Below, piece after piece: positions 49,723 through 56,106 of a stretch of DNA of 64,000 nt (positions are counted from its first letter, which is position 1; every line of letters begins with the position of its first letter). Under the pieces are notes generated by a model. The model did no database searches. It saw nothing but the letters and a program-made list of their open reading frames with translations, and was not told the DNA's origin. The DNA lies in the NCBI GenBank assembly GCA_949751835.1, contig CATKHK010000018.1, positions 434,001-498,000 on the forward strand, written 5' to 3'. The translations under genes and the position numbers were made by a program. This stretch comes from Blepharisma japonicum (Eukaryota; Ciliophora; Heterotrichea; Heterotrichida; Blepharismidae).

Positions 49723-50598
49723 TTACTCATTTATTTTGACTTTAAAACTAAAATCCATCTTCGGACTTCTATTTTGTGACAGTGTTTTCACATTGAACTG
49801 TGACGCACTTACAAGAGTTAAATACTTATTTATCCTATTTCTCACCACGATCCCTAATGCTCCTTCACTATCTCCTCTAGTTTTTATAATTAAATCAGGA
49901 CTAAATATATATTGGCAGCCAAATTTTACTTCAACAGTTTTTTCGCTTGTATAGCTGAAGGAAGAGCCTAATTTTAAGTCTTTTTTGAAATCATAATACA
50001 TTGAGCATATTAAATTTCCTAATGAGTATGCGTTTTTGTCAGTGCTTATGTGCTTTATACCTATTTTATGATGTTCATTTGACCAAAATAATGCTGCGTT
50101 ATAAGTTATAAATCGTAAGGAGCGGAGTCCTAAAGCAAGCTCTAATCCGCAGCCGAAATTATTATGTTTGGCTACAGTACTTATGTTTAGAGAAGGAAAA
50201 TCAGTAATAAAAAATTTAGTCCTATGTTTTTCAGTGATCTGCTCTATAGAGATTGATTTTTTTTGTGAATGGGAGCCTGCATTATGCTCAAGCTCTAATT
50301 TCAGGGTTGAATTTGGGTACTTCGGATTAGTGTATTCTACCAAAGACTTAAAGAGTTTAGATGTAAAAATTTCTTGCTTAAACATAAACTGCGGAATAGC
50401 GTAGCTAAAGTAAACTGAGCCGATTGTAATAGGAGTATGATTATCACTGGGAATCTGTCTTATCGAAGATTTCGTTTTTAAGTCATCAGCTGCTTTAGCA
50501 TATAGTGAAATTGCAGCAATTTGGTTAAAACAGTAGCCTTTTTCAAGTAAATCTTCTTGAAGCTTAGTTATACGATCAAAACTTTCAAGTTTTGCCAT
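49723..50598 (-). CDS. Mitochondrial porin (VDAC/Porin_3 family)-like
   Basis: 291 residues, close to the 283 of VDAC. No membrane helix; instead, alternating strands across the length, as in a 19-strand barrel (for example STLKLELEHNAG, NNFGCGLELALGLR, LKLGSSFSYTSEKTVEVKFGCQY). The end LIIKTRGDSEGALGIVVRN...LTLVSASQFNV...KMDFSFKVKINE corresponds to the last hairpins of VDAC. The N-terminal 60 residues are helical and longer than usual. The protein would conduct metabolites across the outer mitochondrial membrane; Tom40 is the alternative. It converges with the GST remnant, 20 bp apart, and diverges from the next gene. Confidence 0.72.
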   Translation of the reverse strand: MAKLESFDRITKLQEDLLEKGYCFNQIAAISLYAKAADDLKTKSSIRQIPSDNHTPITIGSVYFSYAIPQFMFKQEIFTSKLFKSLVEYTNPKYPNSTLKLELEHNAGSHSQKKSISIEQITEKHRTKFFITDFPSLNISTVAKHNNFGCGLELALGLRSLRFITYNAALFWSNEHHKIGIKHISTDKNAYSLGNLICSMYYDFKKDLKLGSSFSYTSEKTVEVKFGCQYIFSPDLIIKTRGDSEGALGIVVRNRINKYLTLVSASQFNVKTLSQNRSPKMDFSFKVKINE

Positions 50599-50719: not shown

Positions 50720-52594
50720 ATGGGCTGTGGAGGATCAAAGAAACCGAAAGAGGAAACCAAAAAAGTTGAGGAAAAGCATGAAGAAAATAAGCATGACACT
50801 ACCAATGGAGGACAAGAGGCAGAAAAGCCTACTCATCAGCCAGAAACTAAAACAACTGAAGAAGGCCAAGCTGGTGGCCATGCAGGAACACTTATCTTTG
50901 AAGGCAACCGTCTTCTCAAAAAAGCTAAAAAAGGTGAAATTGATTTCTTTCAATATCTCTATAGCCCAGACCAAACTGATCAAGATGTAATTGAGCTCAG
51001 AAAATTCGCCCCCAGTTTCTACGGAATTGAAGAGCGAAATAACGAGCCCTATATTTCAATGGAAAATTTACTAACAGGGTACGAGCATCCAAATATTATG
51101 GACTGTAAGCTTGGAAGAATCACTTGGACCCCTCATCATACTGAAGAAACCAAAGCTCATCAAGAAGCCAAAAATAGAACCACCACAACTGGCTCTTTAG
51201 GCTTTAGAATTTCAGGAATAATTACCAAAGATTCCCATGGCAAAAAAATTGAAGCTTGGGCCAAAAAAGAAGGCTTTTTTGGAATCAATGAAGGAAATAT
51301 ACACGAGCAGTTTGTAAAAATCGCGACTCATGACGGAAAAATCAATTATGAAGCTATTGATGTATTTATTAGAGGGACAAATGAAATATTAAATTGGTTT
51401 AAAAGGCAAAAAACAAAGCATTTTGTAGCAAGCTCAGTATTTTATGTCAGTGGGAAAAATAATAAGCATCAGGTGAGATATATTGATTTTGCACATGCAA
51501 TTGAGGCGAATGGGGAAATTGATTATAATGTAATTGAAGGGCTCGAAAATTGTATCAAAATTTGGGAGAAATTAAAAAATCCAATACCACAGCCTGTAGC
51601 TTCAGGTGATCAAGCAGGAGGGCATGAGGGTAGCTTGATTTTTAGAGGAAATAAGTTACTTAAAAAAGCCCATCCTGCCGAAATAGGGTTTTATAGTGCG
51701 CTATTTGATCCACAGCTTGAAAATTCTGAGTTAATTGAATTCCGTAAATTTGTGCCATATTTTTATGGAGTGGAAATAATTAATAACAAAAATTATATAG
51801 TCCTTGAAAATGTGCTGTTTGGGTATGAGCACCCTAATGTATTAGATTGCAAAATAGGAAAAGTAACCTGGACTAAAGACCATAATGAGGTGAAAACTAA
51901 AAAACAGCAAGAAAAAGCAAGGACTACTACAACTGGATCACTAGGTTTCAGGATTTCTGGTTTAATAACCAAAGACGAGTTTGGAAATAAAATTGAATCT
52001 TGGAGCAAAGACGGTGGATATTTCAATATAACCCCAGAAAATATTCATGAGCAGCTTGTAAAAATTGTTCACAGAGGAGATACTTTTCAGCTTGACAGAG
52101 CAGAGCTGCTATTAAAGCAAACTCAAGAAATATTAAACTGGTTCACAAAACAGCGCTCTAAGCTATTTTTCACTGCTTCTGTTTTATATGTAAATGGCAC
52201 TGACAAAGCCCAAGCTCGATTTATTGATTTCGCTCACGTTTTTGATGCAGAAGGGCATGAAGATATAAGTAATTTCTAAATAGATACGAGAGAAGGACTA
52301 GAAAACCTTATAAAATGCTGGCAAGAAGTAATAAGAAAATACTGCCCTCCTCAAGAGAGAGTAAAACCTCAAAAATTCCCTTATGAAGTTACTTTAGAAG
52401 AAGGAAAAACTTACCATTACTGTGACTGTGGGAGGTCAAAAGTGCAGCCATTTTGTGATGGTTCTCATATTGATACCTCTTTTACTCCAATTGCTGTGGT
52501 AGTTAGTGAGACTAAATCTTACCATCTCTGTGGTTGCAAGTCAACCAAAAACAAGCCTTATTGTGATGGTTCTCATACTAAATTAGACTGGTAG
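50720..52594 (+). CDS. Tandem inositol polyphosphate kinase fused to two CDGSH iron-sulfur domains
   Basis: 619 residues in exons 50720-52268 and 52284-52594. The N-terminus MGCGGSKK fits N-myristoylation on Gly2 and palmitoylation on Cys3, so it is probably membrane-tethered. A charged linker leads to two IPK domains, about 51-290 and 297-530. Each has the family motif PxxxDxKxG (HPNIMDCKLG, HPNVLDCKIG), the TTTTGSLGFRISG block, and the metal-binding IDFAH (about 255 and 502), so both may be active IPMK/IP6K-type kinases making higher inositol phosphates or pyrophosphates. The last 80 residues hold two CDGSH motifs, CDCGRSKVQPFCDGSH and CGCKSTKNKPYCDGSH, each able to bind one [2Fe-2S] cluster through three Cys and one His. 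I know of no described protein with this combination. Confidence 0.9.
52269..52283 (+). other. 15-nt spliceosomal intron
   Basis: GTAATTTCTAAATAG. Removing it deletes a TAA and aligns the second kinase end (INTREGLENLIKCWQEV) with that of the first (VIEGLENCIKIWEKL), which proves that the CDGSH part belongs to the same gene. Confidence 0.9.
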
Positions 52595-53799: not shown

Positions 53800-56106
53800 T
53801 TATATATTTTCTGGAATTTCTTCAAGTTGGGCTGCTCTTGTTGAATTTTCATCATCAAAAGATATCAATCTTCCTGACTTTGGGATAATTCCTGGCTTAA
53901 TATCACTGGACTCATTAAAAGCGTACAGTTTCCTTGTCCTAGGTGTCAAATAATTCGATCTCGGCGAGCACCCCATTCCAGGTGACCCCAAAGGTGAATA
54001 ATATTGCAAAGGCGAGGGCAAATTTGCTCTCAACGGGCTCGTTGGGTTCAGCGCTGCAATTCTTGGTTTAATTGGGTTCAAGCCTGTCAAAAACACTTTG
54101 AAGCTTGGTATAAAGCATTTATTATAAAATCTTATAATATCTCCAGCTTGGTATATATCTTTATATATTTTCTGGTTATCACCATATATTCCTGTGTATT
54201 GCTCAATTAAGCTTTTAAATTCAATTGGGCTATGGAGCTTGCATATTGAATATACACAGCACAGAATTAGCGTGTCTAAATGCCTATTTAAAAGAATTTC
54301 TGTATGTTCAGATAAAGCAATTTTTAAAATATCCCAAATATGTTCTCTGATTTCGTCATTAATTCCTAAAATTTCTGTTAATTCTAGCACTCGGTGAGCG
54401 GAATGGGATAAAACTCGTCTGAAAAATATTGAAAAAATGCCGTTATTTGGGGATTTTGGGGTGAGGTCAGAAGATTCACTTTCGTCAAGAGCTTCAGGGA
54501 TAGGGGAATGAATTTCTCCAATATATTCTTTTAAATATTGAAAAATTGGGCTGCTTTGCTCCCAGGCTAGCTCTGATAAAATTCTGACCTCAATTTCTTT
54601 GAAATGCCTTTTCAGAGGAATTGGGAATTTTACGTCAAATTGTGCGAAGCTGTTAATGAGTTTCCAAAATTCAAATCCAGTGATTTGGCAGAAGCTTAAC
54701 ACTTGTGAAAAAGTTATATGTGTTAGCGAATGCAAAAATATCACCGAAATAATGCTGCAAGCTAAAGTAGTTTGATGGAAAGAGTCATTATTGAGCAAAA
54801 CCCCAAAGTTTCTTGAAGTCAGTCTTTTTTCTTCATTTGCCAGCATTCCATCAATAGACTTCAAATACAAGCTTAACGTGATTTCTACCTTTTGGTTGGG
54901 CTTTGAAGAAGACATATATTCCATAATAATATCAGGGCAATTCTGTGTTTCGTCATAGAAAAGTGCCAATTTATTCCGATACTCATTGATTTTTTGAGAA
55001 ATTTGAATTTCAGTATTTGCTAAATATTCAGCAAGCTTAGGAGGTAAATTATCAACAGAGACTTTTTTAGTAATATCTCTGAGTCAACTGCTCATTTCCA
55101 TCGCCATACTCATAGGGGTCGCCATCTGGAATGGAGACATCGGTGGCAGCCTTTTTATGCTCTCTAATTGGCTTTTTAATGAAATATCTTCATTGTCGTT
55201 ATCCCATGCTATAAGCCTTTTTGAGTTAACTGTTTGATAATTTAGTGTTTTATTTCTCAAGATTTTAGGAAGCTGCTTTACAGGGGTGCTAGCTTTGTGC
55301 TTTTGGATAAATTCTCGATCATCTATTCTAGAGCGGCTTTCATTTTCATAGAATTTTGATAAATTTTGCAAATTGTGATTAAGGTGACAAGCTGAAAAAA
55401 TACCTTCTAAGTTTTCAGTCTCGTCGACATTTCCTCGTAGAATTTCCTGTTTTTTTAGGTTCTGGATTAAATTTAAGACAGTCAAAGCGGAGTCTGTACC
55501 TTGTTCTTCATCTCCGCTTAAGAGAGATGCAAGGTAGTTCATAAGAGAAGAGTTTGGGCATGCATATGTGACTGTGGATGGGAGATTTGTTAAGATGAAA
55601 TAAAGAACACCTATCATAAGGCATGCAGTCTCGACAATGTCGTAAGGGTTAGTTATAAGCATGAGTCTTCCTAAGGAAACAAGCATCCAAGCAAATTCTT
55701 TTATCATCCCGACAACACCGAAGTGTCCTTGCTGCTCATTAAGTTCAAGTTGTCCCCAAATTTCTTGGAATTTTCTGAATACGCTGGCTGTGAAGGAAAA
55801 TTTGTCAACTTCAATAAGAACATCATTAGCTGCATTTGTTGATTTTAAGAAATCTTTTAAAAATGCAATAAAATCAGCAGTTTCGTCAACTCCTTTTGTG
55901 AGTCTATATAACGAAACTTTGATTTTTTCTGGGTTAATTCTCATTGCTAAAAAGATTGAAGCTCTTGACAAATATGAGTCGAAAAACTCAATTTTCTGGT
56001 TGTTTTGGTTGAATTCTTTAGAAATTTTTGATGCAATTTGTATTGTTTGGGTGTCTAAGTTCAGCTGGGTTGCCAAGCTCTCAATGTAATTTGAATCATG
56101 GTTCAT
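53800..56106 (-). CDS. Retinoblastoma-family pocket protein
   Basis: 768 residues; TGA at 55084 is Trp. The N-terminal 250 residues match the helical RB N-domain (FGVVGMIKEFAWMLVSLGRLML). Pocket A spans about 325-535: EITLSLYLKSIDGMLANEEKRL, NNDSFHQTTLACSIISVIFL, RILSELAWEQSSPIFQYL. A short acidic spacer leads to pocket B, about 565-690: RVLELTEILGINDEIREHIWDILKIALSEHTEILLNRHLDTLILCCVYSICKL, the classical cyclin-like fold. The tail has several Ser-Pro sites (SPLQYYSPLGSPG), as in CDK-regulated Rb. It should repress E2F-driven genes and control entry into S phase in the nucleus. Length is near that of plant and algal Rb proteins. Confidence 0.93.

Follow-up and report, generated by a model that had tools for sequence, protein, structure and literature searches.

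A single gene in the 64,000-nucleotide stretch of Blepharisma japonicum DNA analyzed here (the window) encodes a predicted protein in which an acylation-type leader, two inositol polyphosphate kinase (IPK) domains and two CDGSH iron-sulfur motifs are joined in one chain. The separate parts are of known kinds; the combination appears to be new. Judged from its sequence, the gene is a true fusion with all parts on one predicted spliced mRNA. It runs on the plus strand in two exons from the ATG at 50720 to the TAG at 52594, with an in-frame TAA three codons 5' of the ATG, and its spliced coding sequence of 1,860 nucleotides specifies 619 amino acids plus the stop. In the spliced protein, only the Pfam families IPK and zf-CDGSH exceeded their cut-offs, and two other listed families stayed below theirs. 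All of the parts claimed in a preliminary description of this region were found where it had placed them, by open reading frame (ORF) analysis, translation, Pfam and motif patterns (Table 1).

The continuity of the gene depends on a predicted 15-nucleotide intron, which the preliminary description had located at the end of the second kinase domain. Without splicing, the frame stops at the TAA at 52277-52279, whereas omission of GTAATTTCTAAATAG keeps it open to 52594 and restores the C terminus of the second IPK domain. Comparison supports the assignment of this intron: a 15-nucleotide GTAA...TAG stretch is present at the same codon and in the same phase in five IPK genes (the fusion gene and genes on contigs C22, C5, C85 and C128), and in all five its omission joins D-x-N to the next ...GL stretch of the IPK domain. 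The site is unbroken in domain 1 of the window gene, in domain 1 of the C22 gene, in C82 and in both domains of C25. Exon 2 comprises 102 complete codons, none of them for methionine, and thus offers no ATG from which the CDGSH part could be translated separately. In Blepharisma stoltei, introns of 15 and 16 nucleotides predominate (PMC9942806).

A second fusion gene was found on the minus strand of contig C22 at ~462-464 kb, with the same order of parts: an MGCGISKK leader, two IPK domains and two CDGSH motifs. With TGA read as tryptophan it is open across all domains, and its own 15-nucleotide stretch is stop-free and a multiple of three. Together, the methionine-free second exon and this open paralogue of identical order uphold the earlier claim that the fusion is real and belongs to one gene, and the paralogue strengthens that claim considerably. 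Between the two fusions, the proportions of synonymous (pS) and non-synonymous (pN) differences were 0.71 and 0.17 in IPK1, 0.76 and 0.35 in IPK2, and 0.80 and 0.22 in the CDGSH part. Synonymous differences were near saturation, and pN was below pS in each domain compared; dN/dS was 0.09 (dS 2.1) for IPK1, the sole domain in which it was computable. Because non-synonymous differences lie below synonymous ones throughout, we read the comparison as purifying selection acting on IPK1, IPK2 and CDGSH alike.

TGA is read as tryptophan in this genome, as illustrated by GRIT-TGA-TPHH in the C22 gene versus GRITWTPHH in the window gene. Since the tryptophan codons of the fusion gene are all TGG (nine, with zero TGA), the code is immaterial to its reading. 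Telomere repeats of CCCTAACA gave 77 and 91 three-unit pattern matches, compared with 0 and 0 in a reversed control, and several of them lie at contig ends; they were absent at the three contig ends looked at first (both ends of C18 and the start of C22). TGA as tryptophan, these telomere repeats and 15-nucleotide introns are published traits of Blepharisma stoltei (PMC9942806), and the code, telomeres and introns observed here match Blepharisma.

Two complete IPK domains had been proposed, and they were confirmed, catalytic motifs included, by Pfam (PF03770, 223.1 bits against a cut-off of 22.2, E 3.6e-66, in two stretches), by alignment and by motif search. Residues 124 and 372 mark the two PxxxDxKxG motifs, and residues 255 and 502 the two IDFAH motifs. 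In the alignment, PxxxDxKxG, [V/I]DF and the N-lobe lysine (position K18, which we take to be the ATP-site lysine) are present in both domains, so that neither domain has lost its catalytic residues. The roles of the PxxxDxKxG and [V/I]DF motifs are described in PMC10897400 and PMC11000326. For both domains the best Protein Data Bank (PDB) match by sequence was human IPMK, and the model of domain 1 adopts the IPK fold, again with human IPMK as the best fold match; the Foldseek and VIA comparisons speak only to families in their lists. In this model, the inositol-binding region consists of two short helices (93-104 and 107-111). The corresponding region of human IP3K is helical and comprises ~60 residues, unlike the short one of IPMK (PMC11000326). 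A short region is common to IPMK and IP6K and does not tell them apart; the kinase is most likely of the IPMK type, but may be of the IP6K type. The fusion thus shares with IPMK/Ipk2/Arg82 proteins (PF03770) the fold of domain 1, PxxxDxKxG, IDF, the presumed ATP-site lysine and the two-short-helix region, but the matched PDB constructs have 257-363 residues and one IPK domain, whereas the fusion has two, together with the leader and the CDGSH pair.

The two complete CDGSH motifs were likewise confirmed by Pfam (PF09360, 64 bits against a cut-off of 29.5, E 1.5e-17, in two stretches) and by the pattern C-x-C-x2-[S/T]-x3-P-x-C-D-G-x-H, whose only 2 matches in the six frames of the window are both in the fusion gene. 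Searched against the PDB, the 72-residue tandem matched 3tbn, a bacterial MiNT homologue, at 6.3e-24 and human CISD3 at 1.6e-17, followed by the Tetrahymena mitochondrial CDGSH subunits 6z1p_AV and 7w5z_FS (1e-14 and 3.4e-14). Chains of mitoNEET were far weaker, with E values of 0.0028 or worse by sequence and 0.15 or worse by fold. The same two proteins, bacterial MiNT homologue and human CISD3, led by fold as well (3tbn and 6avj, at a TMq of 0.58), obtained with a weak model (predicted local distance difference test score, pLDDT, 68.8, and <50 over most of motif 2). Class II NEET proteins carry two CDGSH motifs on one chain (PMC5859297, PMC6006223), and since the tandem matches 3tbn and CISD3 well ahead of mitoNEET, the pair is assigned by sequence to this two-motif, CISD3/MiNT class. 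The mitoNEET-type label of the preliminary description did not survive: two motifs per chain and the weaker sequence and fold matches rule that class out. Each CDGSH site probably holds a [2Fe-2S] cluster, and clusters with NEET-type 3Cys:1His coordination are labile (PMC6006223).

Comparison with known CDGSH proteins places the fusion apart from each of them. It shares two complete 3Cys:1His motifs with CISD3/MiNT/Miner2 (PF09360), and the alignment to 3tbn, the match ahead of human CISD3, extends over 68 residues; MiNT, however, is small and located inside mitochondria (PMC6006223), while the pair in the fusion is C-terminal to kinases and behind an MGC leader. The Tetrahymena chains also have tandem CDGSH motifs, but according to their entry titles 6z1p_AV and 7w5z_FS are parts of the mitochondrial ribosome and of complex IV, and they have 160 and 188 residues and no kinase domain. 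The class I proteins mitoNEET and NAF-1 have the same cluster motif but carry one motif per chain, form homodimers and possess an N-terminal transmembrane helix (PMC6006223). Bacterial fusions likewise join CDGSH to another domain (Fer4_19, Glu_synthase, ferritin-like or Rieske_2), but the partners named in PMC5859297 are domains of iron and redox metabolism, not signaling kinases.

The leader is rich in lysine and glutamate and, by eye, contains no hydrophobic stretch. It opens with M-G-C-x-x-[S/T], and MGCxxS is a consensus of the N-myristoylation plus palmitoylation type. The acylation-type N terminus noted earlier is present as MGCGGSKK, and the C22 paralogue, which also begins with MGCxxSKK, adds to the case for it. 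From this sequence, myristoylation and palmitoylation of the leader are expected, which would put the protein at a membrane.

The whole genome (45.2 Mb in 224 contigs) was searched for relatives. The CDGSH tandem matched 12 genomic places: the two fusions, C52, C1, one gene with an RIIa-like domain, C13, C34, C53, C22:210 kb, C31, and C26 and C50. C13 and C34 encode short tandem-CDGSH proteins that are very alike, and C26 and C50 are a near-identical pair. An MGC start (first methionine taken by eye) was found in 4 of the 12 places, in each case as MGCxxS: MGCGGS in the window gene, MGCGIS in C22, MGCFSS in C52 and MGCCAS in C1; the longer form MGCxxSKK is common to both fusions and C52. The C52 and C1 proteins appear to be acylated members of the NEET type and may lie outside mitochondria. 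The RIIa-like fusion suggests that a CDGSH module is directed either to cilia or toward a partner of the AKAP kind.

On the kinase side, the double IPK gene on C25 arose from a separate tandem duplication (100/99 in the IPK tree), and single-IPK genes also are present. In the IPK tree of 10 rows, 4 of the 7 inner branches were starred, and domain 2 of the window gene, domain 2 of C22 and C5 had no firm placement. The CDGSH tree of 11 rows, built without C50 as a near copy of C26, had one starred inner branch out of eight. That the leader and CDGSH part derive jointly from an MGC-CDGSH gene, into which the IPK pair was inserted later, is only an idea.

Table 1. Features of the fusion gene (window coordinates) and related genes elsewhere in the genome
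Feature	Location	Strand	Basis or remark
Exon 1: leader, IPK domain 1, IPK domain 2 as far as the last helix	50720..52268	+	ORF, translation, Pfam IPK in two stretches
Charged leader, 48 amino acids, MGCGGSKK start (G2, C3, S6)	50720..50863	+	Sequence; MGCxxSKK start also in C22 paralogue and C52
IPK domain 1; PNIMDCKLG 51089-51115, IDFAH 51482-51496	50867..51577	+	
IPK domain 2, split by the intron; PNVLDCKIG 51833-51859, IDFAH 52223-52237	51611..52333	+	Pfam; PDB phmmer human IPMK E 3.2e-18; alignment
Intron GTAATTTCTAAATAG, 15 nucleotides, phase 1, in-frame TAA inside	52269..52283	+	IPK end restored when omitted; site and phase common to C22, C5, C85, C128
Exon 2: IPK2 end, linker, tandem CDGSH, stop TAG; no Met codon	52284..52594	+	Sequence
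CDGSH motif 1, CDCGRSKVQPFCDGSH, 3 Cys + 1 His complete, residues 563-578	52421..52468	+	Pfam, pattern
CDGSH motif 2, CGCKSTKNKPYCDGSH, 3 Cys + 1 His complete, residues 599-614	52529..52576	+	Pfam, pattern
Stand-alone tandem CDGSH, MGCFSSKKK..., 69% identical to the fusion's CDGSH	L035, C52 ~312 kb	-	
Stand-alone tandem CDGSH, MGCCASVD..., 63% identical to the fusion's CDGSH	L037, C1 ~389 kb	+	
RIIa-like domain, then tandem CDGSH (61% identical)	L038 1171-1713, C22 ~208 kb		RIIa score of 18.1 bits, under the cut-off of 22.4
Gene with two IPK domains and no CDGSH, open frame starts MDQAGGH	L003 571-2055, C25 ~345-346 kb	reverse strand of L003	

The N-terminal domain of the inositol 1,4,5-trisphosphate (IP3) receptor had many matches (at least 10) in the genome of this single-celled ciliate, and the ITPK family had 2. 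The IP5 2-kinase and PPIP5K N-terminal families had no genome match, but the control genomes likewise had none, so absence does not follow. Short peptide patterns from the whole protein gave 8 pattern matches in viral contigs, and patterns from the IPK alignment gave 59 in viral contigs and 73 in genome contigs; 0 were confirmed in each of these searches, which distant relatives could escape. NCBIfam, applied to six proteins, gave no match at E 0.01.

We read the protein as a membrane-anchored IPMK-type kinase with two kinase domains, whose C-terminal MiNT/CISD3-type pair would serve as an iron, redox or pH input, a reading that we place just short of even. A single spliced mRNA would encode all parts, and acylation at G2 and C3, as predicted from MGCxxS, would tether the product to a membrane. 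There, the kinase domains would phosphorylate membrane-derived inositol phosphates (InsPs), most likely Ins(1,4,5)P3 and InsP4 as IPMKs do, and in this way IP3 would be turned into higher InsPs. Phospholipase C makes IP3 at the membrane, and because the genome has IP3-receptor N-terminal and ITPK-family matches, IP3 is a likely signal for the enzyme to act on. Each CDGSH motif would carry its [2Fe-2S] cluster in labile 3Cys:1His coordination, and the state of that cluster (oxidized, reduced, or lost when pH or iron is low) would alter kinase output or partner binding, which is the weakest step. A stricter version, in which cluster loss, reduction or protonation directly changes IPMK-type output through a built-in switch that predates the split of the two fusion genes and has been kept in both, seems to us rather unlikely.

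Two observations weigh against an iron-sulfur input to the kinase: five other genes encode the kinase but no CDGSH, and two encode tandem CDGSH with an MGC leader but no kinase. Because kinase and MGC-led CDGSH each exist apart, a shared tether has to be taken seriously as a rival, one that we hold possible but short of probable: the CDGSH part would not regulate the kinase but act as a cluster or electron carrier or a partner-binding module, and the kinase would work independently from the same membrane anchor. The stand-alone proteins MGCFSSKKK... and MGCCASVD... imply that an acylated CDGSH would be useful by itself, and the joining of the tandem to an RIIa-like domain (C22:208 kb, below the cut-off) suggests a module put on different localizers. 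However, both diverged fusions keep the physical link, which is unneeded if acylation alone achieves colocalization. It is improbable that the kinase part is instead an IPMK-type phosphatidylinositol 4,5-bisphosphate [PtdIns(4,5)P2] 3-kinase rather than a soluble InsP kinase, with the acyl anchor bringing the enzyme to its lipid; the MGC leader would suit such an enzyme, and human IPMK, the best fold match, has reported PtdIns(4,5)P2 3-kinase activity, but soluble InsPs also are IPMK substrates (PMC11000326). Finally, two adjacent genes, or a kinase gene that ends prematurely at the in-frame TAA and is followed by a CDGSH pseudogene, would fit the unspliced frame but are scarcely credible and were rejected in view of the methionine-free exon 2, the intron conserved in five genes whose omission restores the IPK C terminus, the C22 paralogue open through all domains with TGA as tryptophan, and the intron sizes that predominate in Blepharisma stoltei (PMC9942806).

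Other genes were noted near the two fusions. A VDAC-type porin gene (Porin_3, E 4.6e-15) lies at 49723-50598 on the minus strand of the window, head-to-head with the fusion gene and with 121 nucleotides between the two ATGs. Contact between mitoNEET and VDAC is known, and this neighborhood may be chance. At 53803-54969, also on the minus strand, the window encodes a retinoblastoma-type pocket protein (RB_A 2.6e-28, RB_B 1.3e-26). Downstream of the C22 fusion there is, by eye, an apparent CoA-transferase gene.

The preliminary description knew of no such architecture, and no description of an IPK-CDGSH combination turned up among the papers listed in our literature searches, which did not extend to bioRxiv, most subscription papers, protein databases or the proteomes of other ciliates; the architecture may already exist as an automatic annotation among deposited Blepharisma proteins. 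We also know of no description of such control of inositol signaling by an iron-sulfur switch. That one genome holds two such fusions, with little non-synonymous change between them, strongly hints at a functional link between the two activities. Signaling and metabolic control involve inositol phosphate kinases as well as NEET-type iron-sulfur proteins, and the fusion offers one protein target in which a link between kinase and cluster is directly testable. If the built-in switch is real, this ciliate would couple its iron and redox state to IP3/Ca2+ signaling in one polypeptide.
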